A stretch of 64,000 bases of DNA from Eutreptiella sp. 'Long Island Sound 2002' (Eukaryota > Euglenozoa > Euglenophyceae > Eutreptiales > Eutreptiaceae): positions 1 to 64,000 of the forward strand of contig CAXIWF010000193.1 of NCBI GenBank assembly GCA_964036045.1, in the 5' to 3' direction. Under the pieces are notes generated by a model. That model worked only from the letters and a program-made list of their open reading frames with translations. It did no database searches and had not been told where the DNA came from. Below, piece by piece: positions 2,148 to 64,000 of this stretch (position 1 is its first letter; every line of letters begins with the position of its first letter). Made by a program: the position numbers and the translations under genes.

Positions 2148-3074
2148 GTCGCGAAGTCGTCGCAAAGTGGTCGCGAAGTGGTCGCGAAGTGTTCGCGAAG
2201 TGATCGCGAAGTGGTCGCGAAGTGGTCGCGAAGCCGTCGCGAAGTGGTCGCGAAGTGGTCGAGAAGTGGTCGCGAAGTGGTCGCAATTGTCGCGAAGTGG
2301 TCGCGAAGTGGTCGCGAAGTGGTCGCGAAGTGGTCGCGAAGGGGTCGCGAAGTGGTCGCGAAGTGGTCGCGACGTGGTCGCGAAGTGGTCGCGAAGTGGT
2401 CGTGAAGTGGTCTCGAAGTGGTCGCGAAGGTTGCGAAGTGGTCGCGAAGTGGTCGCGAAGTGGTCGCGGAGTGGTCGCGAAGTGGTCGCGAAGTGGTCGC
2501 GAAGTGGTCGCAAAGCGGTCGCGAAGTGGTCGCAATTGTCGCGAAGTGGTCGCGAAGTGGTCGCGAAGTGGTCGCGAAGGTTGCGAAGTGGGCGCGAAGT
2601 GGTTGCGAAGTGGTCGCAATTGTCGCGAAGTGGTCGCGAAGTGGTGGCGAAGTGGTCGCGAAGTGGTGGCGAAGTGGTCGCGTAGTGGTCGCGAGGTGGT
2701 CGCGAAGTGGTCGCGGAGTGGTCGCGAAGTGGTCGCGAAGTGGTCGCGAAGTGGTCGCGGAGTGGTCGCAATTGTCGCGAAGTGGTCGCGAAGTGGTCGC
2801 GAAGTGGTCGCGAAGTGGTCGCGAAGTGGTCGCCAAATTTTTCGCGAAGTGGTCGCGAAGTGGTCGCAATTGTCGCGAAGTGGTCGCGAAGTGGTCGCGA
2901 AGTGGTCGCGAAGTGGTCGCGAAGTGGTCGCGAAGTGGTCGCGAAGTGGTCGCGAAGTGGTCGCCAAGTGGTCGCGAAGTGGTCGCGAAGTGGTCGCGAA
3001 GTGGTCGCGAAGTGGTCGCGAAGTGGTCGCGAGTTGGTCGCGGAGTGGTCGCGAAGTGGTCGCGAAGTGGTCGC

Positions 3075-5227
3075 GATGTGATAGCGAAGTAGTCGCCAAG
3101 TGGTCGCGAAGTGGTCGCGAAGTGGTCGCGAAGTGGTCGCGAGGTGGTCGCGGAGGGTTGGGAAGTGGTCGCGAAGTGGTCGCGAATTGGTCGCGAAGTG
3201 GTCGCGAAGTGGTCGCGAAGTGGTTGCAATTGTCGCGAAGCGGTCGCGAAGTGGTCGCGAAGTGGTTGCGAAGTGGTCGCGAAGTGGTCGCGAAGTGGTC
3301 GCGAGGTGGTCGCGAAGTGGTCGCGAAGTGGTCGCGAAGTGGTCGCGAAGTGGACGCGAAGTGGTTGCGGAGTGGTCGCGAAGTGGTCGCGAAGTGGTCG
3401 CGAAGTGGTCGCGAAGTGGTCGCGAAGTGGTCGTGAAGTGGTTGCGAAGTGGTCGCGAAGTGGTTGCGAAGTGGTCGCAATTGTCGCGAAGTGGTCGCGA
3501 AGTGGTCGCGAAGTGGTCGCGAAGTGGTCGCCCAGGGTCGCGAAGAGGTCGCAAAGTGGTCGCGGAGTGGTCGCGAAGTGGTCGCGAAGTGGTCGCGAAG
3601 TGGTCGCGAAGTGGTCGTGAAGTGGTCGCGAAGTGGTCGCGAAGTGGTCGGGAAGTGGTCGCAATTGTCGCGAAGTGGTTGCGAAGTGGTCGCGAAGTGG
3701 TCGCGAAGTGGTCGCGAAGTGGTCGCGAAGTGGTCGCGAAGTGGTCGCGAAGCGGTCGCGAAGGGGTCGCGAAGTGGTCGCGGAGTGGTCGCGAAGTGGT
3801 CGCGAAGTGGTCGCCAAATTTTTCGCGAAGTGGTCGCAATTGTCGCGAAGTGGTCGCGAAGTGGTCGCGAAGTGGTCGCGAAGTGGTCGCGAAGTGGTCG
3901 CGAAGTGGTCGCGAAGTGGTCGCGAAGTGGTCGCCAAGTGGTCGCGAAGTGGTCGCGAAGTGGTCGCGAAGTGGTCGCGAAGTGGTCGCGAAGTGGTCGC
4001 GAGTTGGTCGCGAAGTGGTCGCGAAGTGGTCGCGAAGTGGTCGCGATGTGATAGCGAAGTAGTCGCCAGGTGGTCGCGAAGTGGTCGCGAAGTGGTCGCG
4101 AAGTGGTCGCGAGGTGGTCGCGGAGGGTTGGGAAGTGGTCGCGAAGTGGTCGCGAATTGGTCGCGAAGTGGTCGCGAAGTGGTCGCGAAGTGGTTGCAAT
4201 TGTCGCGAAGCGGTCGCGAAGTGGTCGCGAAGTGGTTGCGAAGTGGTCGCGAAGTGGTCGCGAAGTGGTCGCGAGGTGGTCGCGAAGTGGTCGCGAAGTG
4301 GTCGCGAAGTGGTCGCGAAGTGGTCGCGAAGTGGTTGCGGAGTGGTCGCGAAGTGGTCGCGAAGTGGTCGCGAAGTGGTCGCGAAGTGGTCGCGAAGTGG
4401 TCGCGAAGTGGTCGTGAAGTGGTTGCGAAGTGGTCGCGAAGTGGTTGCGAAGTGGTCGCAATTGTCGCGAAGTGGTCGCGAAGTGGTCGCGAAGTGGTCG
4501 CGCAGGGTCGCGAAGAGGTCGCAAAGTGGTCGCGGAGTGGTCGCGAAGTGGTCGCGAAGTGGTCGCGAAGTGGTCGCGAAGTGGTCGCGAAGTGGTCGCG
4601 AAGTGGTCGCGAAGTGGTCGCGCAGTGGTCGCAATTGTCGCGAAGTGGTTGCGAAGTGGTTGCGAAGTGGTCGCGAAGTGGTCGCGAAGTGGTCGCGAAG
4701 TGGTCGCGAAGTGGTCGCGAAGCGGTCGCGAAGGGGTCGCGAAGTGGTCGCGAAGTGGTCGCGAAGTGGTCGCGAAGTGGTCGCGAAGTGGTCGTGAAGT
4801 GGTCCGGAAGTGGTCGCGAAGGTTGCGAAGTGGTCGCGAAGTGGTCGCGAAGTGGTCGCGAAGTGGTCGCGAAGTGGTCGCGAAGTGGTCGCGAAGTGGT
4901 CACGAAGTGGTCGCGAAGTGGTCGCGAAGGTTGCGAAGTGGTCGCGAAGTGGTCGCGAAGTGGTCGCGAAGGTTGCGAAGTGGTCGCGAAGTGGTCGCGA
5001 AGTGGTCGCAATTGTCGCGAAGTGGTCGCGAAGTGGTCGCGAAGTGGTCGCGAAGTGGTGGCGAAGTGGTCGCGTAGTGGTCGCGAAGTGGTCGCGAAGT
5101 GGTCGCGAAGTGGTCGCCAAGTGGTCGCGAAGTGGTCGCGAAGTGGTCGCGAAGTGGTCGCGAAGTGGTCGCGAAGTGGTCGCGAGTTGGTCGCGAAGTG
5201 GTCGCGAAGTGGTCGCGAAGTGGTCGC
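3075..5227 (+). repeat. Higher-order repeat inside B1 (about 0.97 and 1.18 kb copies)
   Basis: A rare variant, GATGTGATAGCGAAGTAG, recurs at 3075, 4045 and 5228. It is followed each time by the same downstream marker, GGAGGGTTGGGAAG, near 3151, 4121 and 5304. Spacings are 970 and 1183 bp. The shared order of rare variants shows that kilobase segments, not only single 11-bp units, have been duplicated. Confidence 0.8.
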
Positions 5228-7956
5228 GATGTGATAGCGAAGTAGTCGCCAAGTGGTCGCGAAGTGGTCGCGAAGTGGTCGCGAAGTGGTCGCGAGGTGG
5301 TCGCGGAGGGTTGGGAAGTGGTCGCGAAGTGGTCGCGAATTGGTCGCGAAGTGGTCGCGAAGTGGTCGCGAAGTGGTTGCAATTGTCGCGAAGCGGTCGC
5401 GAAGTGGTCGCGAAGTGGTTGCGAAGTGGTCGCGAAGTGGTCGCGAAGTGGTCGCGAGGTGGTCGCGAAGTGGTCGCGAAGTGGTCGCGAAGTGGTCGCG
5501 AAGTGGTCGCGAAGTGGTTGCGGAGTGGTCGCGAAGTGGTCGCGAAGTGGTCGCGAAGTGGTCGCGAAGTGGTCGCGAAGTGGTCGCGAAGTGGTCGTGA
5601 AGTGGTTGCGAAGTGGTCGCGAAGTGGTTGCGAAGTGGTCGCAATTGTCGCGAAGTGGTCGCGAAGTGGTCGCGAAGTGGTCGCGCAGGGTCGCGAAGAG
5701 GTCGCAAAGTGGTCGCGGAGTGGTCGCGAAGTGGTCGCGAAGTGGTCGCGAAGTGGTCGCGAAGTGGTCGCGAAGTGGTCGCGAAGTGGTCGCGAAGTGG
5801 TCGCGCAGTGGTCGCAATTGTCGCGAAGTGGTTGCGAAGTGGTCGCGAAGTGGTCGCGAAGTGGTCGCGAAGTGGTCGCGAAGTGGTCGCGAAGTGGTCG
5901 CGAAGCGGTCGCGAAGGGGTCGCGAAGTGGTCGCGAAGTGGTCGCGAAGTGGTCGCGAAGTGGTCGCGAAGTGGTCGTGAAGTGGTCCGGAAGTGGTCGC
6001 GAAGGTTGCGAAGTGGTCGCGAAGTGGTCGCGAAGTGGTCGCGAAGTGGTCGCGAAGTGGTCGCGAAGTGGTCGCGAAGTGGTCACGAAGTGGTCGCGAA
6101 GTGGTCGCGAAGGTTGCGAAGTGGTCGCGAAGTGGTCGCGAAGTGGTCGCGAAGGTTGCGAAGTGGTCGCGAAGTGGTCGCGAAGTGGTCGCAATTGTCG
6201 CGAAGTGGTCGCGAAGTGGTCGCGAAGTGGTCGCGAAGTGGTGGCGAAGTGGTCGCGTAGTGGTCGCGAAGTGGTCGCGAAGTGGTCGCGAAGTGGTCGC
6301 GAAGTGGTCGCGAAGTGGTCGCGAAGTGGTCGCGAAGTGGTCGCCAAATTTTTCGCGAAGTGGTCGCAAATGTCGCGAAGTGGTCGCGAGGTGGTCGCGA
6401 AGTGGTCGCGAAGTGGTCGCGAAGTGGTCGCGAAGTGGTCGCGAAGTGGTCGCGAAATGGTCGCGAAGTGGTCGCCAAGTGGTCGCGAAGTGGTCGCGCA
6501 CTGGTTGCGGAGTGGTCGCGAAGTGGTCGCGAAGTGGTCGCGAGTTGGTCGCGAAGTGGTCGCGAAGTGGTCGCGAAGTGGTCGCAATTTGGTAGCGAAG
6601 TGGTCGCGAAGTGGTCGCGAAGTGGTCGCGAAGTGGTCGCGAAGTGGTCGCGAAGGGGTCGCGAAGTGGTCGCGAAGTGGTTGCAATTGTCGCGAAGTGG
6701 TCGCGAAGTCGTCGCGAAGTGGTCGCGAAGTGGTCGCAATTGTCGCGAGGTGGTCGCGAAGTGGTCGCGAAGTGGTCGCGAAGTGGTCGCGAAGTGGAGG
6801 CGAAGTGGTCGCGAAGTGGTCGCGAAGCGGTCGCGAAGTGGTCGCGAAGTGGTCGCAATTGTCGCGAAGTGGTCGCGAAGTGGTCGCGAAGTGGTCGCGA
6901 AGTGGTCGCGAAGGGTCGCGAAGTGGTCGCGAAGTGGTCGCGAAGTGGTCGCGAAGTGGTCGCCAAGTGGTCGCAATTGTCGCGAAATGGTCGCGAAGTG
7001 GTCGCGAAGTGGTCGCCAAGTGGTCGCGAAGGGGTCGCGAAGTGGTCGCGAAGTGGTCGCGAAGTGTCGCGAAGTGGTTGCGAAGTGGTTGCGAAGTGGT
7101 CGCGAAGTGGTCGCGAAGTGGTCGCGAACTGGTCGCGAAAAGGTCGCAAAGTGGTCGCGGAGTGGTCGCGAAGTGGTCGCGAAGTGGTCGCGAAGTGGTC
7201 GCGAAGTGGTCGCAATTGTCGCGAAGTGGTCGCGGAATGGTCGCGAAGTGGTCGCGAAGTGGTCGCAATTGTCGCAAAGTGGTCGCGGAATGGTCGCGAA
7301 GTGGTCGCGAAGTGGTCGCGAAGTGGTCGCGAACCGGTCGCGAAGTGGTCGCGGAGTGGTCGTGAAGTGGTTGCGAAGTGGTTGCGAAGGTTGCGAAGTG
7401 GTCGCGAAGTGGTCGCGAAGTGGTCGCAATTGTCGCGAAATGGTCGCGAAGTGGTCGCGAAGTGGTCGCGAAGTGGTCGCGAAGTGGTCGCGAAGTGGTC
7501 GCGAAGTGGTCGCAATTGTCGCGAAGTGGTCGCGAAGTGGTCGCGAAGTAGTCCCGAAGGTTGCGAAGTCGTCGCGAAGTGGTCGCGAAGTGGTCGCGAA
7601 GTGGTCGCGAAGGTCGCGAAGTGGTCGCGAAGTGGTCGCGAAGTGGTCGCAAAGTGGTCGCGAAGTGGTCGCGAAGTGGTCGCGAAGTGGTCGCGAAGTG
7701 GTCGCGAAGTGGTCGCGAACTGGTCGCGCACTCGTCGCGGAGTGGTCGCGAACTGATCGCGAATTGGTCGCGCACTGGTCGCGAAGTGGTCGCGGAGTGG
7801 TCGCGGAGTGGTCGCGGAGTTGTCGCGGAGTGGTCGCGGAGTGGTCGCGGAGTGGTCGCGAAGTGGTCGCGAAGTGGTCGCCAAGTGGTCGCGAAGTGGT
7901 CGCGAAGTGGTCGCGAAGTGGTCGCGAAGTGGTCGCGGAGTGGGGTGGTCGCGGAC

Positions 7957-53996: not shown

Positions 53997-54014
53997 TGTA
54001 ACTGCTAAGATCTG
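53997..54014 (+). repeat. Left terminal inverted repeat
   Basis: TGTAACTGCTAAGATCTG, the exact reverse complement of 61522-61539. Inward similarity resumes at TTCACAT (54025) after a 10-bp insertion relative to the right end. The terminal TG/CA dinucleotides also resemble LTR ends, which is the main alternative reading. Confidence 0.75.
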
Positions 54015-54036
54015 CCCCATTTTGTTCACATGTATG

Positions 54037-54230
54037 CGTACGCGTTGGCGTACGCACTGATTTTGTAACGCGCATGAACCAGCGAACCAGCGCGTACGCG
54101 TTGCGATCTGAGTGCGTACGCGTTGCGTTCTGAGTGCGTGCGCGCTGGTATTTTGGCGCGTACGCGTTGGTATTTTGGCGCGTACGCACTCAGATCGCAA
54201 CGCGTGCGTGCTGCCTATGGTGCCCGTACG
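54037..54230 (+). repeat. Phased CGTACG array 1 (left subterminal)
   Basis: CGTACG cores start at 54049, 54093, 54115, 54159, 54181 and 54225, with one-base or two-base variants at 54071, 54137 and 54203. Every step is exactly 22 bp. An extra core at 54037 is 12 bp before the first. Well-kept units extend to a 16-bp dyad close to CAACRCGTACGYGTTG. The array lies between the left terminal repeat and the first ORF. It is followed by a pyrimidine-rich tract ending in TTTTCTTAG (54321), a possible 3' splice site, so it may be in a 5' leader intron or in the promoter. Confidence 0.85.
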
Positions 54231-54337
54231 CTGTCTGCAGTACTGGCGGTTGAATCGTGCTGCTTTTGACGTGACAAAGAAAAACTTTTACTTTGCTTCA
54301 TGTCTGTTTTCCTTTTCTTAGTGCTTTTTTGCACGAC

Positions 54338-56392
54338 ATGCCCGGCAAGAAAAAACCGGCGAAGAAGAAGGTGGCGAGGAAGGTCTCCGTGCCTCCCACC
54401 GACGCCGGGGCCGTGGCAAGGAGGGCGCCAAGGACAAGTGTGGGTCAAGACGTGGTGGAGGGAGACGTGGATTTGGAGGAGGAGGTGGAGGAGGAGGATG
54501 AGGTGGTGGCCGACGGCAATAGGCCCGCCGAGATTGTGAGGCGGGCCTTGGAGGTTGGGTTGTTGGAGGAGGATGAATCGGTGGAGCGTTGGTTCACGGA
54601 CACTCGTGAGGCAGGAGATCTTGCTCACGGTGTTCATGGTGTTGTTGTTGTTCGTTTAGCGTTGGGTGAGGAAGACATTAAGGGTCTCCCGGAATTGCCA
54701 AGTTCATGGCAAGATCTTTTGCTTTTGGATGTGAATGCGCAAGCACTAGGTGTTATTGCTGTTGTTGATAGTCGTTCCGTTCTTGCATGGCCCAATGCCG
54801 ATGCAATGCCCCACACCCTTCTCCCTGCTGCTTTGTATGAGTTTGTGGGTGAGCGTTTGCTCATGGTTTCCATTAGTTTGAGTGTTGGTGAGCGTGACGC
54901 ACTTTTCACAACTATGAATGCGTCCTTGCGTAAGAGAGTTGCCAAGACCCTTACCCACAAATATGCGGTGCTCAATGATGGTACCCTTTTCCCCAATCCC
55001 GTTGCCAGTGACGTGGATAGCATTTGTCGCACGGACTCCTTTGTCCGGTACATGGGTTGTGCATCGGATGAATGGAATGAGCATGGCCCCATTCAATGCG
55101 TGCCCCCACCCCTTTCGGTAAATTACCACCCCGATTGCTCAACGCCGTATGTGTATGCAACCGCAGCAGAGTCTTTTGCATTGGGTTACGGTGCACCCAC
55201 ACCATTTTTCTGTGATATGCCCTTGCCCTCAAACCAATTGCTTCCGGACGCACCCGTCGAAAATGTGCATGGGTTTGCACATGCCGGTTATTTCATTGAA
55301 CGGCATTCGTTTGATGCTGTTATTGGCGAAGCCATTTTAAACGTTGACATTGCCCCCCGTGATTGGGAGGTGATTACGTTGGAAGATGACACTTATGCAA
55401 GTGCCAACGTGATTCGGAAGCAAACAAAACGGTCGTCGAAATGGTTGCCCGAGGAGTTGCGCACGCAAGTGTTGGGTGCGGTGACGCGCATTGAGGGTGT
55501 TGAGTGGAGTGCGTTGAAACCCGTGGATCTGAAATTGCTACATTGTACCCCATGTGCCCCATGGGATGGGTATCAGTTGGTCCATTCGGATCACAACCTT
55601 ATGGGTCCACCTAGGATGAAGGATTGCATCCAAGTCTTTATTCCCTTGGACAATGTTCCTCCCGAGTGTGCTTTGCAAGTCGGAGTGGGTTCACATCAGG
55701 TTGGGCAACATGAGTCCAATCGTTGGGATGTGTGTTCCATGGAATTGGGTGACATCCTTCTTTTAAAAGGTTGCACCTTTCATCGCGGGGCAGGTGGTGG
55801 GGAAAAGGGGCGCTACACTTTGTTCATCCCGTTTGTCCCTTTGGAGCATGCTGCCACCATGTCAAAGGTGCATCTTGCTCGCCAATTGTATGCCCTTCCT
55901 CCTATGGTTCAATTTCTGAAACATGCCAAAGGTGTTCCTATCCCTTGGGAATCTTTTACCCATTTTTCGGCTCCGTTGCTTGTTCGGCGACGGCAAGCTA
56001 TCCCCTATTGTGGTGACGTTGTGATTTTGGGCCATGGTGTGCATGGTGCAACTTTCTTTTTTAAGTGCCCACCCGGCCCCGAGGAGCCACCATGTCCCTT
56101 GGCCCGGTTTCACCGTTGGTACCTCCCAAAGGCAAGTTTTGACGGCGGGACACGGTTTACGGTTGAGAAAGGTTCGTTGGTGTTCACGTTTGCCACGTGT
56201 GGTTACGTGTTGAGGCGGGACGAGGATGGGCCGGAATGGATGGAGTGGGCAGCCATGGGGCATGCCCTGCATGTGGCGCCCGCTAGTGTTGCGGAGGCGG
56301 TGGAGCAGAACTGGGTGGTCCAGCGGCCGACGGCGACGGGCGGAATGGCGTACTCATTTGGGTGCATGGACCATTGTGATAATTATGGGGAG
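54338..56392 (+). CDS. PhyH-like 2OG-Fe(II) dioxygenase protein, exon 1
   Basis: 685 codons from the ATG at 54338 to a 5' splice site (GGGGAG|GTATGC). The start begins a Lys-rich, NLS-like stretch (PGKKKPAKKKVARK, residues 2-15). A further upstream extension would need a TTG start. Residues 44-60 are strongly acidic. Residues about 405-500 look like a double-stranded beta-helix dioxygenase of the phytanoyl-CoA hydroxylase type: HSD at H416/D418 for iron, the distal His in FHRGAG (H482), and R492 in GRYTLFIPF for 2-oxoglutarate. Known for the family: hydroxylation or oxidation using O2 and 2OG. The substrate here is unknown. The basic N-terminus suggests a nuclear site. The frame runs into the next ORF in phase 0 when the intron is removed, so this is probably the front of a larger protein. 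Confidence 0.7.
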
Positions 56393-56697
56393 GTATGCAT
56401 TTCTTGCGCATGTGGCACGTACGCACCGCGTGCGTGTTGCGCAAGTGCCTCGTACGCGTTACGTTTTTGGTGCGTACGTGTTGACCTACCAACACGTACG
56501 CGTAGGCCACGCAGATCGTACGTGTTGGGGTAGCAACACGTACGCGTTGCCCGAGCGCCTCGTACGCATTGACGTACCAGCACGTACGTGTTGCCCCAGT
56601 AGATCGTACGCGCTAATGCACCAACTCGTACGTGTTGCGTGCGCTGCCCACACGTGTTGTTTCATAAATAACGTGTCTCCACGCTTTCCTCTTGCAG
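56393..56697 (+). other. Predicted 305-bp intron carrying array 2
   Basis: The donor GAG|GTATGC and the acceptor TTTCCTCTTGCAG|TT are close to consensus. Both flanking exons are in phase 0, and the downstream ORF has no ATG near its start. Almost the whole intron body is a CGTACG array. Open reading through the intron is possible for 47 codons but gives only Arg/Cys-rich sequence made by the array. Confidence 0.75.
56418..56632 (+). repeat. Phased CGTACG array 2 (intronic)
   Basis: CGTACG cores start at 56451, 56473, 56495, 56517, 56539, 56561, 56583, 56605 and 56627, all exactly 22 bp apart. A CGTGCG variant at 56429 is in phase, and an extra core at 56418 is 11 bp before it. Cores are embedded in CAACACGTACGCGTTG-like dyads. 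Spacer bases vary between units. Confidence 0.9.
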
Positions 56698-57936
56698 TTG
56701 AACGTCACCCCCTTCAAGTACAAGGAGCGGCGCCCTTGGCCCTCTGAAGCACAAGTGCACCCGACGCCTCCGGATTCGGGCCGGAAGGCGCTGCAGCCGA
56801 AGGCGCTTCTTCAGAGCCCCCCACGCGCTCCCTTGGTTGCCCCGGACCCTGAGTCGATAGGGACAATTGCAGGGCAGTTGGTGCAGGTGAGTAAGGAGGA
56901 TGTGGTGGACAACGTCCATGTTGGGGATGTTGCCAAATATAGTTTTTTTGATCAGGTTACGTTGCAGGCAAAGGTAAAGGAAGACAGTGGTGCGGTCTCA
57001 TGGCTTGAGCCCATGATGGTCCGCTTTCCCATGTGGATGAAGGGCCATGCCGTTGGCAGGGACCCTGCAGCAGTTTTTATTGGGGGGACTTTGTACCAGA
57101 TCAAAGGTGACAGCCACAGTTACGTGCAGACATGGCGTGTGCATGGAGGGCAGCTCAAGCAGGCCAAGCGTGCTCAGTGGTCAGGGGTGGCGGGTTACCT
57201 CCCAATCACCGACGCTGCTGTTGTTGCAGAGGTGGAGGGTGCAATGGAGAGGTGGAAGCTTCTCCTTGCGGGGAAGGTTGGGGGGAAGAGGGACACGGGG
57301 ACAGGGGGGGATGAGGAGGGCTACGACACCGACCAATCGCGGCACAGTTCTCGTATGTCCCGCGCCAAGAAACCAAAGCTTGGTGCCAGGGGGGGGCCCG
57401 TAGTCCCCCAACAGCTCCCCATCTCCCCCTCAGGACCACTGCGTGAGCACCTCAAAGACACACAGGCGCAGCTAAAGGCGCGAATTGTGGAACTTGAGAA
57501 GGTGCGCAAGGAGAGTGCGGCGGCACAGAAAGCTGCAGAGGACATGCTCAGGGAAGAGCGTGTAAAGTGGGAGGATGAGCGAAGAGAAAAAGACAGTGAG
57601 ATTAGGGAGTTAAGAGTGAAGCTGCAGGATGCCTCTGTGAGGGCAAGCAAGAAAGGCCCATCCAGCCCTGGCCCTGGGGAGGGGGGGAAAGATGTGGAAG
57701 ATCAGAAGAATTTTTTGCAGCTGGCAGCAATGGAAATCAGGGATGGCCTTGTCCAAGCCACCACATCCATTGAGGACCTGAGGGATTCACTGCAGGATGC
57801 AAGAGGCAGGGAGACATCACAGGGACAGAAGACTCTCACAGCCCTTATGGCATTGACGAACAAGTACAATGTCCGGAGTCTACAGTCCGGCAAGCCGGCG
57901 GAGCAGCCCGGCGGTGGCAAGGGTGGTGGGAGTTGA
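56698..57936 (+). CDS. Exon 2: globular region plus coiled coil, ends at TGA
   Basis: 412 codons from the 3' splice site at 56697 to TGA at 57934. Joined to exon 1 it gives a protein of 1097 residues. No ATG occurs for the first 105 codons, which supports its being a downstream exon. The first about 190 residues are Trp-containing and globular (for example RFPMWMKGHAVGRD and GDSHSYVQTWRVHGG); I do not recognise a domain. A Gly-rich, charged linker follows. Then comes a strong coiled coil of about 60 residues (LREHLKDTQAQLKARIVELE onward), rich in Glu, Lys and Arg, that could mediate dimers. A second helical stretch (AAMEIRDGLVQATTSIEDLR) precedes a Gly-rich tail. The TGA may be removed by a further intron. 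Confidence 0.65.
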   Translation: MNVTPFKYKERRPWPSEAQVHPTPPDSGRKALQPKALLQSPPRAPLVAPDPESIGTIAGQLVQVSKEDVVDNVHVGDVAKYSFFDQVTLQAKVKEDSGAVSWLEPMMVRFPMWMKGHAVGRDPAAVFIGGTLYQIKGDSHSYVQTWRVHGGQLKQAKRAQWSGVAGYLPITDAAVVAEVEGAMERWKLLLAGKVGGKRDTGTGGDEEGYDTDQSRHSSRMSRAKKPKLGARGGPVVPQQLPISPSGPLREHLKDTQAQLKARIVELEKVRKESAAAQKAAEDMLREERVKWEDERREKDSEIRELRVKLQDASVRASKKGPSSPGPGEGGKDVEDQKNFLQLAAMEIRDGLVQATTSIEDLRDSLQDARGRETSQGQKTLTALMALTNKYNVRSLQSGKPAEQPGGGKGGGS

Positions 57937-58022
57937 CTCCCAGGGGCTGCTGCTCTCCCCTCCTCTCACATATGTTTTTTGTTGGAGGGGTTGGATGGGG
58001 GGGTGTGGCAGTCCAAGGACAG
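57864..58022 (+). other. Candidate 159-bp intron removing the in-frame TGA
   Basis: The ORFs on both sides are in the same reading frame, and only the TGA at 57934-57936 separates them. A donor AACAA|GTACAATG (57864) and an acceptor GGACAG|GTGG (58022) are both phase 2. Using them would fuse the coiled-coil exon to the second dioxygenase. The acceptor lacks a strong pyrimidine tract. The stronger-looking CAG at 58011 does not match a good donor in phase. Stop-codon readthrough, or two separate genes, remain possible. Confidence 0.3.
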
Positions 58023-58047
58023 GTGGGGAGTACGATTGCGTTCCGCG

Positions 58048-58569
58048 ATGTTTGGGGTGGTGCAGCGTGGCAATGTCCGGGTGGCGGTTGCAACACGCAA
58101 CTTCCCGAAGGTGTGCCAGGCCATCAACGCCTACGGGCGCGCACGGTTGCCATCGTGGTTCACTTGGACTGCCGTCCAAGTGAACCATGGTATTTCCCCT
58201 TCAAGCACTATGCCAGGGCACAAGCACCAGGACCACTTGCCCTTGAGTGCCATTGTGACTGTTGGTGATTTTTCAGGTGGGGAGTTTTGTGTGGAAGAGG
58301 CGGGGCTCGTGTTCCCCACAAAGGGAACCCGTCCCTACACAATGGCATGTGTTGCAGGGCCAGAGGGCCAAGACAGAGTGGATGAGGATGGGGTGGCATC
58401 GGATGCCCGGAATGGGGTTGTTTTTTGCAGTGGTGCTTTGCACATGCCAGCCCCGTGGCGTGGTGAGCGCTACGCACTGGTGTTTTTTACCCAGGTCGGT
58501 CTTGGCAAGGTGTCCTGGGAGGACCTCGTGCTGCTGCGCAGTCTTGGGTTCCGGCTGTGTGCCGGGTAG
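58048..58569 (+). CDS. TET/JBP-like 2OG-Fe(II) dioxygenase
   Basis: An open frame runs to TAG at 58567. The first ATG is 58048 (MFGVVQRGN, 173 residues), while the frame itself is open from the TGA at 57934. The fold signature is clear: a TATRNFP-like helix region (VATRNFPKV), FTWTAVQVN, then a His-rich stretch GHKHQDH, the strand AIVTVGDFSGGEF, and ALHMPAPWRGERYALVFFT with the distal iron His and the 2OG-binding Arg. The iron motif is probably HQD. The residue pair at the spacing I would expect reads HKH, so loss of the Asp cannot be excluded. Known for this type: oxidation of 5-methylcytosine or thymine in DNA (TET, JBP, Chlamydomonas CMD1). Action on DNA here is inferred. The TAG overlaps a possible donor (CCGG|GTAGCA). 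Confidence 0.7.
   Translation: MFGVVQRGNVRVAVATRNFPKVCQAINAYGRARLPSWFTWTAVQVNHGISPSSTMPGHKHQDHLPLSAIVTVGDFSGGEFCVEEAGLVFPTKGTRPYTMACVAGPEGQDRVDEDGVASDARNGVVFCSGALHMPAPWRGERYALVFFTQVGLGKVSWEDLVLLRSLGFRLCAG
58156..58187. repeat. Perfect 14-bp hairpin inside the dioxygenase ORF
   Basis: TGGTTCACTTGGAC (58156-58169) is followed by the 4-nt loop TGCC and the exact complement at 58174-58187. It lies within codons for SWFTWTAVQVNH, just before the iron-binding motif. Confidence 0.85.
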
Positions 58570-58943
58570 CATGTGCATGCATTGTGCATTAATGATTGAT
58601 GGGTGAAGTGTGCGTCAACACGCGCGCGTTGTGGCAGGGGCGCGTACGCGCTGGCGTACGTGGTGCGTACGCGTTACGGTGTTGCATCGTACGCGTTGCT
58701 GTGTTGGCGCGTACGCGCTGGGGTCATGACGCGTACGATTCGCTTTTCTGGCGCGTACGCGTTGGGTTCATGACACGTACGATTCAGTGTTGTGGAACAT
58801 ACGCATTAAGAATGGAACGCGTACGCGGCTCGTACGCGCAGACGTACGTGTTGCATGTTGCTTGTACATGTGAAGCTTGTTGTGTCCATGCACCCCCCCC
58901 CCCCCTGTTGTCTTTCCCTAGGTTTTTTTTTCCCCCCCTCAAG
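58566..58943 (+). other. Candidate 378-bp intron or intergenic gap carrying array 3
   Basis: The donor CCGG|GTAGCA overlaps the TAG of the dioxygenase ORF. The acceptor TTCCCCCCCTCAAG|GAAC ends at 58943. Both are phase 2, so the two ORFs could be joined in frame. A more classical acceptor, TGTCTTTCCCTAG (58921), is out of phase for fusion. It could serve a separate transcript whose first ATG is 58948. Confidence 0.35.
58643..58848 (+). repeat. Phased CGTACG array 3
   Basis: Cores at 58666, 58688, 58710, 58732, 58754, 58776 and 58820 are exactly 22 bp apart, with a CATACG variant in phase at 58798. Extra cores at 58643 and 58655 (12 and 11 bp steps) lead in, and cores at 58831 and 58843 follow at 11-12 bp. 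Confidence 0.9.
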
Positions 58944-58947
58944 GAAC

Positions 58948-60636
58948 ATGCCCCCGTTCAAGGAGTACCAACAGCTGGGAAGGACTAAGAGATGGGAACG
59001 GATGGCCGAACTGCAAACTGCAGTCACAGACATTCTTGGCCCAACCTGGCAAGTGCAAGCTGGCGAAAACGTGGGCACCCTCATTTTGAAAACGACGGAA
59101 GGGCCCATGCCCAAAAATCACATGTGGCATGCCGAGGCCCTCCTGTGGGATTGCCGCAAAGAGGGCAAAAGCTGGCGGGCCCTCCAGTACTCCATCCCCA
59201 CGTCCAGGATCAAATGCCCCCTTGATGAAATCAGACGTGTGAAGGAGGATCTTAGTGCACCACCAGTAGTGGACTACAATGCAATGGACGGGGACCACGC
59301 ATTGCTGGGGGCCGGTACAAATTTGAGGGAGAAGCTGGGACTCATGATGGCCACCCATAAGGGAAATTTATACCCGGACCTATGGGTACGGCTATGTGTG
59401 GATGGCACACAACTACACAAGCGGCACTTCGAGCATTTTATGCTTGGAGTGCTTGGATCGGGCAACCCGCTTGGTAGCTGGTGCATTTTGCACGGCTCTG
59501 AAAAACGTGCTGTGCTACGATCGCTCACAAGGGTTAGCAAAATGGATGAGCAGGTGCAAGAGGCCCTAAACACAAGGTATGAGGTACAAGGGGGTTACAT
59601 GGAAAAACCCCATATTTTCCTGGTTGCAGATGTCGTTGCACAACAGGCAATGGCAGGCATCAAAAGATGGAACTGCACCAGTGAGGACCCAGTGTGCTGG
59701 GTATGCGGCAAATGCAGGGCACATTGCGATCGCGACTTTGGAAAGGGACTTTCACCCATTCTGTCACACTGGACCTGGTACGGGCAGGTGCTACGTAGCA
59801 TTGTGCCCAAGTACAGGCCTCCTGACTATGCATTGCATGGGGTCACACGTGTAACCCACAGTGGCCTTGATGGATGCTGGAGGGCTCTTGTACAGCACCA
59901 TCGCTTCACGAAGAGACGCGCTATTACATGGGTGCAGACCCATGTAAATCCTTGCAGGGTTGCCTCACACAGTGTTGCACCGCAAGACATCGCAGGGCAG
60001 GCGGGTGACAAACCGTCACTCCGTTGTGAACAGAGCGCAGCAATTCTATTTGTTTCGACAAAGGCCTGGGGTCCCCTCATTGTAGGGCTGAACAATGAAG
60101 GTCTCTTGCAACATGTCGTGGAAGGGGGTCACACTTGGGCGCAAAATTTTGATTCGTGGTGGGACTGTTTCCACAAAAGTGCAACCATTGCCAAAAAGGA
60201 GGGGCTGTTAGGAGCCCAAGAGATTGAAGCCCTAAAAAATGTGCTACCCCAAATGGCAGTGCATCACAAAAGGTGCCAACTGGGGCAAACCCTGTGGGTG
60301 CACCTTTGGGTTGACCACATGCTTGGGTTTGCTAAGCAGTGGCATGCCCTTGGCGCCTTTGCTGCCTTCAAGGCAGAAGAAAGGCACAAGACTCTGAAAA
60401 CAGAGATTCGGTTTAGGAGCTTCAAGGGGGGGGCAAGGAAAGTAAAAGGGGGGGTACGGGGACGGAGAGGTAGACTGGTGAGGCAAGTTTTAATGAAAGG
60501 GTGGAGGGAAGTTGTAAAAAATGATAATCTGGATTGGGGTTTTTTAAAGAGGGGGTGGGATGTATGGGTGCGTGCATGGACACAGCAAGCACACGTGAAG
60601 GAACACAAAACGTATTGGAAGGCCAACGCGCCTTAG
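58948..60636 (+). CDS. Transposase-like protein, possible DDE nuclease with Cys cluster
   Basis: 562 residues from ATG 58948 (the frame is open from 58855). I cannot name a family. Possible catalytic acids, by position at strand ends: D152 in WVRLCVDGTQL, D228 in IFLVADVV and E477/E478 in FKAEERHKTLK, the last in a helix with the E..H...K look of several transposase families. A Cys/His cluster C250, C253, C256, H259, C260 could bind zinc. Many Trp residues (for example WTWYGQV and LWVHLWVDH) lie in the C-terminal half, and the tail is Lys/Arg-rich. It is the last ORF of the element, about 0.9 kb from the right terminal repeat, and is the best candidate for the mobilising enzyme. The DDE assignment is inference; no structure or alignment was available. 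TGTAA, used as a poly(A) signal in volvocine green algae, lies at 60663. Confidence 0.55.
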   Translation: MPPFKEYQQLGRTKRWERMAELQTAVTDILGPTWQVQAGENVGTLILKTTEGPMPKNHMWHAEALLWDCRKEGKSWRALQYSIPTSRIKCPLDEIRRVKEDLSAPPVVDYNAMDGDHALLGAGTNLREKLGLMMATHKGNLYPDLWVRLCVDGTQLHKRHFEHFMLGVLGSGNPLGSWCILHGSEKRAVLRSLTRVSKMDEQVQEALNTRYEVQGGYMEKPHIFLVADVVAQQAMAGIKRWNCTSEDPVCWVCGKCRAHCDRDFGKGLSPILSHWTWYGQVLRSIVPKYRPPDYALHGVTRVTHSGLDGCWRALVQHHRFTKRRAITWVQTHVNPCRVASHSVAPQDIAGQAGDKPSLRCEQSAAILFVSTKAWGPLIVGLNNEGLLQHVVEGGHTWAQNFDSWWDCFHKSATIAKKEGLLGAQEIEALKNVLPQMAVHHKRCQLGQTLWVHLWVDHMLGFAKQWHALGAFAAFKAEERHKTLKTEIRFRSFKGGARKVKGGVRGRRGRLVRQVLMKGWREVVKNDNLDWGFLKRGWDVWVRAWTQQAHVKEHKTYWKANAP

Positions 60637-61084
60637 GAGTCTGTATGGTGTTTCAGCTCTTGTGTAACATATTTGATTTGGGATTCCATTGAATTGCTTT
60701 GGGCAAGTATACTACGTCTTCAATGCACATTGCATTCAACATGGTGTTCTGGTGCAGTGATGTGCTTTGCAAGGGAGGGAGCTAAAAAAACCAAGGGCAG
60801 CTGGTGGTCTCATTTCAATGCCTGTCTTCAGCGCCTGTGTTTGTTGGTTGCCCCACTAGGTAGGTCTTTGGCAAGCATCTCCTCGTCGCGTCTTCAGCCG
60901 GAATCCACCTCCTTTGTGGGCCCCTGGTCATGCGGTTGGGGTCGCCTCACGCCCTCTCCTGCTCTTGTGTGTCCTCATCCTAAGGTGCAAACACAGTGCG
61001 TGTGCAGGGGTTCGAACCCAGGGTTCCGAAACGTAGGGAACATGCTCATACCTCTAGACCAACCAGCTGCCATGGCACATAACA
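60637..61084 (+). other. 3' noncoding region of the element
   Basis: There is no ORF of note. It holds a TGTAA motif 26 bp past the stop codon (possible poly(A) signal if the host is a green alga) and a tRNA-like segment on the opposite strand at its right end. Confidence 0.4.
61001..61068 (-). other. tRNA-derived segment with A and B boxes
   Basis: On the minus strand TGGTCTAGAGG (61061-61051) fits the A-box consensus exactly, and GGGTTCGAACCC (61019-61008) contains a perfect B box. The D arm resembles that of plant tRNA-Pro. The T stem pairs at 4 of 5 positions, but the acceptor stem does not pair and the anticodon loop lacks the usual T33. It is probably a tRNA-derived SINE head or TFIIIC-binding relic inside the element. 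Confidence 0.45.
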
Positions 61085-61266
61085 CGTAGGCGGTGCGTAC
61101 GAACTGCGTATGCACCAGCAGATCAACGCGTACGCGTCCGTAATCTAACACGTACGCGTTGCTGTTTCGACGCGTACGTGTTAAGTTACCAACGCGTACG
61201 CGTCGAAACACCAGCACGTACGCGCCACGCACCCAACGCGTACGCGTTGCACTTCCAACACGCGCG
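61085..61266 (+). repeat. Phased CGTACG array 4 (right subterminal)
   Basis: Cores at 61129, 61151, 61173, 61195, 61217 and 61239 are exactly 22 bp apart. In-phase variants occur at 61085, 61107 and 61261. An extra core at 61096 sits half-way. The unit around 61239 is a full 16-bp palindrome, CAACGCGTACGCGTTG. Confidence 0.9.
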
Positions 61267-61481
61267 CGTCAGAGGACAATCTGAAAGCAAGGTTTTGGGA
61301 AATTCAGTATGGTTTTCGGGACACTCTGCAGAGGGAGAAGGCGACCTACGGTCGGCAATGTTTGCAGTGGCACCCAGTGGTGTAGGGGAAGTGCAAAGAG
61401 GGGTTGGGTTGGGTAAGGTGATACCCCACACATGAATTTTGCATGAAAAATGACAAATTTCCAACAAAGAAAAAACCAACG

Positions 61482-61509
61482 CGTACGTGTTGAGATTTCA
61501 ACACGTACG
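61482..61509 (+). repeat. Phased CGTACG pair 5 next to the right terminus
   Basis: Two cores, 61482 and 61504, are 22 bp apart and lie 13 bp inside the right terminal inverted repeat. The left end has its first core 22 bp inside its repeat. Confidence 0.8.
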
Positions 61510-61521
61510 CGTCTATGTGAA

Positions 61522-61539
61522 CAGATCTTAGCAGTTACA
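61522..61539 (-). repeat. Right terminal inverted repeat
   Basis: Exact reverse complement of 53997-54014. The next base outward differs from the left end, so the 18-bp match ends sharply. It begins 4 bp beyond the last base of the gypsy pol stop codon. Confidence 0.75.
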
Positions 61540-61543
61540 TCCC

Positions 61544-62030
61544 TCAATTCGGCCAAGCACGAATACATGTGACCACCAACCTGTCTGGTGGGGCCCTCGT
61601 ACGGCTTGGGCGCTGCAAATCAGCGGCCGAACTCGAAGCTTGGTCCTCATTTGGCTCCTGGGCTGGCCTGACCGCAGGAGGGGGGATCGACGGATCAGCC
61701 CTGGAATGTGGCTGCTGAGGGCCGTAAAAGGCTGGATCTCGATTCACCACAGGTCTTTTTCCGTCGCTCTCCACCTGTCTGTCTGGTTTCGACAAACAGT
61801 CTGTCAGGAGTACGCCAATTTCGGGGTGCTTCTTGAGGAAGTCGATGAACCCCTTGGTGTACCCATGGACAAAAGAATGGGCTGGTTCCCAGTTGTTGTG
61901 ACTGGAATCAAAGCCCCTCCACTCACATAGAAATTCCCATTCGCCCTTCTCGTCACGTCTTGCTTCTAAAATCCTCTTGAGTTCGTATTTCCCCCCTTCG
62001 ATGACCCGATCGGACAAAAATTTCGAAGTC
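61544..62030 (-). pseudogene. Gypsy integrase chromodomain tail, frameshifted from pol
   Basis: This is the continuation of pol in another frame. The segment YELKRILEARRDEKGEWEF, followed by LCEWRGF and NNWEP, matches the chromodomain pattern (aromatic, KILxxR, YLVKWKG-like, TWEP). A disordered Pro/Ser/Arg-rich tail ends at the stop codon at 61544. Runs of A5 (62016-62020) and A7 (62032-62038) on + lie at the frame change and are likely sites of a small indel. Chromodomains guide chromovirus integration to heterochromatin, which would suit the neighbouring satellite; that link is inference. Confidence 0.8.
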
Positions 62031-64000
62031 CAAAAAAAGGGGTTTAACCCGATCCTTGGGGGAGGGGATCTCTTTCTTGAGGCGATCGCCCGAAACGTCA
62101 ATTTCCCTGCTGACATCCACACGAATCCTCCACCTGTTCTCACCTAGACGCGCTGTAACAGCGAATGGCCCCTCCCACAAGGGAAGAAGCTTATCATCTC
62201 CGTCCAGGGTGGTTTCGGATTTTCGAAGCCAAACTCGATCATCGACTTCAAAATTGTGGGGGTTTTTTCGGCCTTGATTCTGGACCCAAAGCCAGTCAGC
62301 TTGATGCTTATCGATTAATTTCGAGACAGTTTTTTCTGCTCGTTGGATTTCGTCCAAAAGCAACGAAGCATCTTTACAAGGGCGAGGATTATTCAACGGC
62401 ATGTTCCACCAACACTTCTTTCGTCCAAAGACAATTTCATTTGGAGAAAGGCCATGGTACAAAGGCGTGTTGTGGTAACGGCGAAGCAATGCGAAGAGAA
62501 CTTCAAGCCAATGGAAGTCTTTCTCACTGGCGAGCTCCTTACGAAGCATATTTATAATGGAGCGGCCAGCTCTTTCGCCAGGCAGCGCTCGATGTGAGTG
62601 GATTTCACATCTCAGGTGGTGGATTCCAAGGCGAGCACATAATTCCTTCCACCATTCGGAGGTGTACTCTTTGCCTGAGTCACGTCCCACCTCGGATGGG
62701 ACGTCCCAACCTCCCATCCAGGTCTGCGCGCACCATTTGGCGGCAGCCTTGCCAGTCATCGACTCGATGTTACAAGGCAACACCTGAATGTAGCCGGAAT
62801 GACGGCACTGAATAAGGAGCACACCATTGACCTTTTTATTAGTCCAATGGCACTCTTCGTCATCGAGTTCACCGAGATAGAAGAAATCACTGGGGACTCT
62901 GTTAAAGAGGCGCTCCGGAATAGGATGTGGCCTCAGATGGCCGTGCTTCTTCGCGCTGGGGGGCGTCGAGACAGCACATTGGGCACATCCGGCGGCTACT
63001 TTCATGCAATGAGTATATAGCCTTGAGCCAAACAACCTATGTTTAATCATCGACCATAATCTACGGCCATGTGCGTGGGGGGACTCCCATTTGTGCCACC
63101 AGTTTAACACTCGGGGGGCCAGGGCGTCTGGTACGCACAATTTACCCTCCATCCACAGCTTCCCCCCATCCAACGAATATTCAGCATAAATTCCATCCTT
63201 GTGAGCATCTTTGGATTTGAGATTCTCAAAGACCTCTTTAAACATGGAATCATGCAGATAATCGTTCGTCCAGTCACGGATGATAAGGGAATCTTTCGGC
63301 AGGGGTGGAGTTTTGGCCGGATCTCGACGCTTAATGCCCTGCATCAACCGAAATCCACTTACTGGTCGGGTATACTCAAACCGTTTCACACTCCTTGAGG
63401 AGGGATCGGTGACTTTTTCCACGACTTTCAGTGATTTGGTTATGATTTCATGAGCATGCGCCGGATCTGAGATGGCCGTGATGTCATGACACGGTAATGC
63501 ATGCTGTTTAACAGCGCATTGCATGCATTCACGTCGGATGAGCTTTTTTTCTTCTTGATCCCACTCGATCACGACGTGGCGGTCCTGCTCCGTACCATGG
63601 ATGTTGGTACTTTGCAGCCCCTCTGAAGCGGGGTAAGCCCATCGGCTCAGAGCATCCGCTACCGTGTTGTGTTTTCCAGGCAAATACGACACATGGAGGT
63701 CAAACAGACTGAGAAATTCGTGCCATCTGGCCCGTCGACCAGCTGGGCTCGCGACAGGATCAATGTGTTCGGTGGCCCAATACTCCAGAGATCGATGATC
63801 CGTCAGGACCTCGACTCGATTGGTGCCAACCCACGATTGGTACTTTTTTAGCGCACAGATTATGGCATATGTTTCTTGCTCACGCGGCGACCATTGCATT
63901 TGGCATGGGGCTAGCTTCCGAGACCAAAATGCAAGAGGGTAATGATCGCCGGTGGCTTCATCAACCTGTTCAAGAACAGCTCCGATCGCGTACCTAGAAG
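61953..64000 (-). CDS. Gypsy pol: RNase H end and integrase (5' end outside window)
   Basis: The frame is open from the window edge (reading SRYAIGAVLEQ, an RNase H strand) through the Met at 63899 to 61953. Counted from that Met: RNase H residues TDHRS (D34) and VADALSR (D82); integrase zinc region with His near 269-277 and C305/C308; catalytic core with D338 (SDFF), D407 (GRDSG) and E442 (GERAG), where the last two are 34 residues apart, one fewer than the common D35E. A C-terminal beta-barrel region (LLPLWEGPFAVTARLGEN) follows. It then loses frame near 62011-62040 and ends in unrelated residues, so the natural chromodomain is in another frame. It is probably a decayed or sequencing-frameshifted copy. 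Confidence 0.85.
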   Translation of the reverse strand, partial: SRYAIGAVLEQVDEATGDHYPLAFWSRKLAPCQMQWSPREQETYAIICALKKYQSWVGTNRVEVLTDHRSLEYWATEHIDPVASPAGRRARWHEFLSLFDLHVSYLPGKHNTVADALSRWAYPASEGLQSTNIHGTEQDRHVVIEWDQEEKKLIRRECMQCAVKQHALPCHDITAISDPAHAHEIITKSLKVVEKVTDPSSRSVKRFEYTRPVSGFRLMQGIKRRDPAKTPPLPKDSLIIRDWTNDYLHDSMFKEVFENLKSKDAHKDGIYAEYSLDGGKLWMEGKLCVPDALAPRVLNWWHKWESPHAHGRRLWSMIKHRLFGSRLYTHCMKVAAGCAQCAVSTPPSAKKHGHLRPHPIPERLFNRVPSDFFYLGELDDEECHWTNKKVNGVLLIQCRHSGYIQVLPCNIESMTGKAAAKWCAQTWMGGWDVPSEVGRDSGKEYTSEWWKELCARLGIHHLRCEIHSHRALPGERAGRSIINMLRKELASEKDFHWLEVLFALLRRYHNTPLYHGLSPNEIVFGRKKCWWNMPLNNPRPCKDASLLLDEIQRAEKTVSKLIDKHQADWLWVQNQGRKNPHNFEVDDRVWLRKSETTLDGDDKLLPLWEGPFAVTARLGENRWRIRVDVSREIDVSGDRLKKEIPSPKDRVKPLFLDFEIFVRSGHRRGEIRTQEDFRSKT

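Follow-up and report, generated by a model that had tools for sequence, protein, structure and literature searches.

The 64,000-nucleotide stretch of DNA analysed here (the window) belongs to the euglenid Eutreptiella sp. 'Long Island Sound 2002' (contig CAXIWF010000193.1, positions 1 to 64,000), and its positions 53997–61539 hold a real, recently mobile DNA transposon. The element ends in TGT..ACA and is bounded by 18-bp termini, TGTAACTGCTAAGATCTG, which have just two matches in the window at up to three mismatches (0 in 100 shuffles); the perfect inverted termini 7.5 kb apart described in an earlier note on this DNA are thus exact and the sole pair present. All main open reading frames (ORFs) share one strand, in line with the co-directional coding blocks of that note. 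They comprise a candidate transposase gene (ORF4), two candidate genes for 2-oxoglutarate- and iron(II)-dependent (2OG-Fe(II)) dioxygenases (ORF1a and ORF3) and the presumed second exon of ORF1 (ORF1b), and they are accompanied by arrays of CGTACG palindromes (Table 1).

Table 1. Features of the element and of its surroundings, in window coordinates (CpG O/E, observed over expected CpG)
Feature	Position	Strand	Remarks
Left terminal inverted repeat, 18 bp	53997..54014	+	begins TGT; TC (one copy of the target duplication) directly before
Array 1, CGTACG palindromes, 22-bp register	54030..54235	.	CpG O/E 1.88
ORF1a, candidate 2OG-Fe(II) dioxygenase	54338..56392	+	HSDH, FHRG, GRYTLF (HSD 416-418: H416, D418; H482, R492)
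Putative intron, phase 0	56393..56697	+	GAG/GTATGC...CTCTTGCAG/TTG; contains array 2; sequence reading
Array 2, CGTACG palindromes, 22-bp register	56410..56645	.	CpG O/E 1.73; inside putative intron
ORF1b, presumed second exon of ORF1	56698..57936	+	weak PHROG matches only, best E 0.056
ORF3, candidate TET/JBP-type dioxygenase	57937..58569	+	ATG 58048; KHQDH, GDFSGGEF, LHMPAPWRGERYALVF
Array 3, CGTACG palindromes	58612..58855	.	CpG O/E 1.99; three diverged copies mostly retain the register
ORF4, CMCT-type DDE transposase candidate	58948..60636	+	VDGT (D152), LVAD (D228), CWVCG (C250, C253), HLWVDH (H452, H457), EERHK (E477)
Array 4a, CGTACG palindromes	61085..61270	.	CpG O/E 2.12
Array 4b, CGTACG palindromes, subterminal at right end	61476..61516	.	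CpG O/E 2.48
Right terminal inverted repeat, 18 bp	61522..61539	-	TC directly after
Empty site (unoccupied paralogue) of the C1:105.44 Mb insertion	62275..62472	+	196/198 identical, gapless, in retroelement-like stretch

Copies and target sites

The window's own genome (2.28 Gb, 2205 contigs) contains at least nine full-length copies that span bases 1–7543 and share both ends, besides partial copies with one or both ends; copy counts are lower bounds, 22 of 693 candidates having been scored. The nine copies are 98.06–99.60 % identical in their 36 pairwise comparisons. A 2-bp target duplication flanks all nine insertions in which both ends could be read, and its sequence varies: TC in the window, CA at C3:168.4 Mb, GA on C10, AT at C1:73.9 Mb, TT at C2:106.6 Mb, AT on C18, AA at C4:44.2 Mb, TT at C1:105.4 Mb and AT at C11:22.0 Mb. 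Three C18 copies with common flanks count once in this series, and copies with a single readable end stand outside it. On C6, a further copy has inserted close to the end of a second one, with the duplication CA. Unoccupied sites exist as well. One lies within the window itself (Table 1), and the insertions L003 and L006 fall within tandem repeats whose unoccupied units match across the junction, some of them gaplessly.

Because copies share their ends, carry 2-bp target duplications and have empty counterparts, the unit is proven to be a mobile DNA transposon, with the inverted repeats, duplications, common-end copies and empty sites of a class II cut-and-paste element. The earlier note had proposed exactly such a unit and a genome search for copies with the same ends, and that search has now yielded the copies, the duplication and the empty sites. 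A host gene cluster or an immobile repeat with inverted ends by chance found no evidence in its favour and is refuted by the same-end copies at unrelated loci, the target duplications, the empty sites and the nested copy, and retains practically no probability.

All four ORFs are intact in six of the nine full-length copies. The others are damaged by a stop in ORF1a (L007), a frameshift in ORF1b (L004), or a frameshift in ORF1a together with a stop in ORF4 (L038); several copies of the element have internal deletions, which is usual for cut-and-paste elements. On C18, three copies at 33960621, 34009209 and 34057788, about 48.6 kb apart, have the same flanks inside a tandem repeat of about 54 bp, and this triplet is a segmental duplication carrying the element.

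The transposase and the oxygenase-like genes

The CMCT clade of DDE transposases comprises CACTA/EnSpm, Mirage, Chapaev and Transib and also takes in Plavaka; in it, C(2)C and H(3–4)H motifs lie between the second D and the E, and target duplications measure 2–5 bp (Kojima 2025, PMC12730594). ORF4 has both motifs in these places, as read from the motifs themselves and not from a profile, and the duplication of 2 bp in nine of nine insertions falls in the range of the clade. The CA..TG termini found "in most cases", which are usual and non-defining, are not those of the element; its TGT..ACA ends and 2-bp duplications are the combination given for the exception, PlavakaA (PMC12730594). Mouse RAG1 presents the comparable series D600, D708, C727/C730, H937/H942 and E962, with 20 residues from the second H to the E (PMC4914335). 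Seven proteins match ORF4, five of them at 69–98 % identity ('ena' records), P0005 at 39 % and P0006 at 43 %; the last two are on contigs of about 2 kb, and the match to P0007 covers only 23 % of the ORF4 query. The second D, C2C, H4H and a 20-residue gap from H to E recur in P0005 and P0006, and the first D is found in P0005, P0006 being too short to show it. Within the genome, ORF4 has at least 77 matches at 79–100 % identity (77 scored of 6218 candidates), and 49 of the 77 are free of stops by our count. On these motifs, ORF4 is probably a CMCT-clade DDE transposase that cuts at the element ends.

The earlier note had seen none of the KDZ motifs in this last ORF, and its impression was sound: the motif order fits the CMCT clade and the duplications are of 2 bp. 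Pfam includes a KDZ model, and ORF4 has no Pfam match to a KDZ transposase, although a diverged member could be missed in this way. A KDZ identity was rejected on the duplications, which are of 7–8 bp in KDZ elements (PMC12730594). Several results weigh against the transposase assignment itself. The window ORF4 has no Pfam match at E ≤ 10 and other members hit three unrelated weak families, the comparison of ORF4 with PDB sequences gave no supporting match, and an AlphaFold model from seven sequences, in which the RNase H-fold catalytic domain of the clade would be sought, reached a predicted local distance difference test (pLDDT) of 37.5 and is unusable, most likely because diverse relatives are few. 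ORF4 and ORF3, the two proteins searched against viral contigs, have no relatives there.

The candidate oxygenases are likewise recognised by their motifs. In ORF3, H60, D62, H132 and R141 form the pattern of an iron triad and a 2OG-binding arginine, in the HxD..H..R order of TET/JBP enzymes, where these residues lie in a double-stranded beta-helix. The order is right in ORF1a as well, and in both proteins the R follows the distal H by 9–10 residues; among 13 aligned ORF3 sequences HxD is present in 11 and the distal H in 12. ORF3 is likely a TET/JBP-type and ORF1a, with the same likelihood, a PhyH-type 2OG-Fe(II) dioxygenase, the presence of two dioxygenase genes in one element being a claim at the level of motifs.

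Against these assignments stand the profile and structure searches. ORF1a has no Pfam match above the cut-off, PhyH included; ORF3 obtained nothing supporting from Pfam or PDB sequences, the results being empty or unrelated; and no ORF or alignment scored above threshold in Pfam, PHROG or PDB sequences (the latter searched with all but ORF1b). The AlphaFold model of ORF3, from 12 sequences, is as unusable as that of ORF4 (pLDDT 39.8), most likely for the same reason, and nothing was deduced from either. Moreover, some ORF3 relatives have lost motif residues (HxE in P0017, HxN in P0021, R changed in P0012 and P0016) and GDFSGGEF varies among the 13 sequences, so that some of these relatives may be dead. 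All this lends some credit to the view that ORF3 or ORF1a is no dioxygenase and that its HxD..H..R pattern arose by chance; given the correct order and spacing in both proteins and the conservation of HxD and the distal H, we consider it improbable. Of the earlier reading of ORF1 and ORF3 as 2OG-Fe(II) enzymes the motifs therefore stand, and the profile and structure searches that its author had suggested have not added a family placement above threshold. Residues 326–368 of ORF1a give a Tudor-like match, to 53BP1, that stays below threshold (Pfam E 0.04, 14.3 bits vs a cut-off of 22; PDB E 0.22 and up) and is perhaps chance, perhaps a chromatin-reading domain.

How these genes are expressed can be read in outline. 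ORF1a and ORF1b are presumed to be two exons joined in phase 0 over the putative intron. A pyrimidine tract with an acceptor-like AG ends at 54321, 16 bases before the ORF1a start; a similar AG ends at 58921, 26 bases before the ORF4 start, and another lies 4 bases before that start; the site 26 bases upstream is kept in L039 and L041, and with changes in L040. A spliced leader could be joined at such sites. Of the Euglena gracilis leader, the 3' part of 20 bases has 1785 + 1905 occurrences in the genome (0 + 0 for the reversed control), and the full 26-base leader, as printed in PMC6242988, is found in L042 at a distance of 511 bp from a gene for 5S rRNA. Judged by this leader, the host would be E. 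gracilis or a near relative of it. The roughly 100 listed of the 3690 places with the 20-mer are all on C1 and dispersed; they possibly include retroposed leaders besides leader genes. ORF3, which lies in the frame of ORF1b directly 3' of its TGA, lacks an evident start and an evident splice acceptor for itself alone, which tells against the reading of the locus favoured below. From 57934 to 58047 the frame runs open from this TGA up to ORF3. L039 has TTA in place of the TGA and stays in frame through a paired +1/-1 indel, L041 has a 3-bp gap, and P0015 seems, by eye, to read the junction in another frame; read-through or a fusion of ORF1b with ORF3 is possible.

Selective constraint was gauged by crude ratios of nonsynonymous to synonymous change between the window copy and 16 loci, in comparisons that are not independent and with sets of ORFs that vary by locus. 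The ratios are 0.26–0.58 for ORF4 in eight of eight loci and 0.20–0.56 for ORF1a in ten of eleven, with 1.81 on seven changes in L034. ORF3 gives 0.25 in L041 (22 synonymous, 17 nonsynonymous changes) and 0.26 in L025 (5 and 4). Less favourable to constraint are the ORF3 ratios of 0.70 in L039 (7 synonymous, 15 nonsynonymous) and 0.82–1.30 in three loci with 5–7 changes, the seven loci with 0 synonymous and 2–4 nonsynonymous changes, the ORF1b ratios, which are 0.84–2.74 in all but two of 13 loci (these two give 0.40 and 0.49), and the values among the nine recent copies, namely 0.73 for ORF1a, 0.61 for ORF1b, 0.49 for ORF3 and 0.80 for ORF4. In the seven loci lacking synonymous changes in ORF3, part of the changes belong to the window copy alone (S instead of L at one position within 58012–58566). 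By these ratios, selection maintains ORF1a and ORF4 and probably also ORF3, whose constraint shows in the more divergent comparisons, and ORF1b is hardly constrained. ORF1b (56698–57936), so little constrained beside its constrained neighbours, could be fast-adapting.

Phased arrays and their possible function

CGTACG occurs at 38 sites in the window, 37 of them inside the element and one at 61598. Among 217 distances of 11–240 bp between CGYRCG sites of the element, 161 are multiples of 11, 120 of them also divisible by 22; column counts give an array unit close to the palindrome CAACGCGTACGCGTTG. The earlier note had placed similar CGTACG sites beneath both termini, which is correct and incomplete: the arrays number four, and besides those at both ends there is one within the putative intron and one ahead of the transposase gene. 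Arrays 3 and 4 of three diverged copies have 0 gaps in 632 core bases, and the cores carry 48 mismatches in these 632 bases vs 144 in 1458 bases, with 54 gapped bases, in the spacers (compared without a significance test).

The arrays also stand out by their CpG content. The observed/expected ratio is 1.73–2.48 in the arrays, 0.49–0.79 in the ORFs, 0.41–0.44 in the remaining 3' sequence and 0.51–1.15 in the sequence flanking copies. Outside the arrays of the nine copies, transitions affect 28 of 558 CpG positions vs 48 of 3013 other C/G positions (odds 3.3, P = 6e-6), and inside them 11 of 302 vs 11 of 233 (odds 0.76, P = 0.66). Outside the arrays the CpG sites thus bear the signature that deamination of methylated cytosine leaves, and inside they do not, although the direct contrast between the two is not significant.

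Taken as a whole, the locus is best explained as an autonomous cut-and-paste DNA transposon of a euglenid with oxygenase-like genes and phased arrays, a reading we favour with some confidence. The first step, most likely action of the ORF4 transposase at the terminal inverted repeats, is well supported. An element protein may then bind the phased arrays adjoining the gene starts and both ends, as phasing and conservation suggest, and the oxygenase or oxygenases may keep these CpG-dense platforms clear of silencing marks, a step suggested by the gene content and the CpG pattern. Tentatively, then, we infer that an element protein binds cooperatively to the four 22-bp-phased arrays and that, in a genome with cytosine methylation, the oxygenase(s) oxidise methylated bases at these sites or work against their methylation, so that promoters and ends stay open. 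In CACTA elements, TnpA binds subterminal repeats and counters methylation, and the proposed function would resemble that system. The suggestion of the earlier note that the element edits its own CpG-rich sites is compatible with the CpG pattern, and an anti-silencing role may be surmised. Three points tell against this function: the cores are just modestly better conserved than the spacers, the direct comparison of array CpG with CpG elsewhere is not significant (P = 0.40), and selection on binding sites could equally give the CpG pattern of the arrays.

In a rival proposal, the arrays are operators for the transposase or an accessory protein, serving transposition and transcription only, and the two oxygenase-like genes are passengers whose substrates are proteins of the host, RNA or small molecules. 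CACTA-type elements normally have subterminal arrays, the array cores hold their register in diverged copies, and the missing excess of CpG decay can stem from site selection. The arrays, however, lie also in the putative intron and between genes, not just at the ends, ORF3 is open in nine of nine full-length copies, and in fungi many unrelated transposons carry TET genes (PMC12730594); we consider the proposal rather unlikely.

The chemistry of the mark is a separate matter. Base J is reportedly present in the nuclear DNA of E. gracilis, by the title of Dooijes et al. 2000, and JBP and TET belong to one superfamily. The DNA of this species also carries 5-methylcytosine (5mC; PMC12455990). Because both bases are reported there, removal of 5mC and a thymine mark both come into question. 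ORF3 might thus be a JBP-like thymine hydroxylase with which the element deposits hydroxymethyluracil or base J on itself instead of removing 5mC, and such a mark may fix where transcription stops or conceal the element. No sequence match of ORF3 to JBP was obtained, however, and the core of the arrays is rich in CpG and has just one TA, at its centre; we consider this variant quite improbable. Returning to the notion of arrays kept open by the element's own oxygenases, one may also picture a two-enzyme base-oxidation module directed to the 22-bp-phased CGTACG operator arrays, one architecture serving as promoter control, anti-silencing island and transpososome platform, whose product, in a lineage that makes base J, may even be an oxidised thymine mark instead of erased 5mC; in this full form the idea is speculative and somewhat doubtful.

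Of the remaining window, the 51 kb or so from 2 to 51606 are nearly all short-period satellite, with alternating arrays of a 10-bp GGGGGGCGAT and an 11-bp GGTCGCGAAGT unit. The giant open frames on the minus strand of this region, up to 3100 aa, look like satellite by-products. To the right of the element, 61544–62143 (minus strand) and 62159–62557 form a retroelement-like stretch in which, by eye, there is a chromodomain-like sequence.

Relation to known transposon systems

Iyer et al. 2014 reportedly covers TET-associated transposons. In fungi, TET genes ride on 11 transposon lineages, and the carriers include KDZ, Plavaka, EnSpm, hAT7, IS3EU, PHISTA, ESTA and Helitron (Kojima 2025, PMC12730594). 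The statement of the earlier note that TET/JBP genes travel with KDZ elements thus holds as far as it names known carriers, and needs widening, the association not being confined to KDZ. No euglenid TET-carrying transposon was found in the literature searched, which left most subscription papers aside. TET transposons are known in fungi; new here is that the carrier is euglenid and combines two oxygenase-like genes with phased arrays. The candidate is intact and was mobile recently, its ends, its duplication and the sites of its arrays are known to the base, and its lineage is reported to have 5mC and base J. If the proposed function is true, the element may remove chemical marks by which the host silences it. 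Whether transposons' own dioxygenases keep promoters and ends unmethylated is directly testable here: the sites that might serve as substrate are explicit, closely packed and phased, and there are diverged copies to compare.

With the fungal TET-carrying transposons (PMC12730594) the element shares the union of a transposase and a TET/JBP-like dioxygenase in one unit, and an escape from methylation silencing is proposed for both; it differs in its euglenid host, its second, PhyH-like gene and its internal phased palindrome arrays. The PE type of the same source is set apart by its HxE hallmark, ORF3 having HQD (HxD). PlavakaA, itself of the CMCT clade, agrees in termini, duplication length and the C2C and H(3–4)H between the second D and the E, whereas ORF4 has no match to a Pfam model; all TET-carrying Plavaka families in PMC12730594 are PlavakaB and fungal. 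RAG1/Transib shows the same D..D..C2C..H4H..E order with 20 residues from the second H to the E, but the first two D are 76 residues apart in ORF4 vs 108 in RAG1, the step from the second D to the C is 22 vs 19, and ORF4 lacks a supporting PDB sequence match. KDZ elements are alike as known carriers of TET/JBP genes and unlike in their 7–8 bp duplications, vs 2 bp here, and in the absence of a Pfam match for ORF4.

The comparison with CACTA/EnSpm elements and the TnpA-TnpD system of En/Spm bears on function. Common to both are a CMCT-type transposase and repeated, CpG-containing subterminal motifs, and the likeness drawn is that of an element-coded protein countering methylation. The element differs in that its ends are TGTAAC and not CACTA, its duplication is 2 bp and not 3, no TnpA homologue is recognised in it, and its arrays are also internal.

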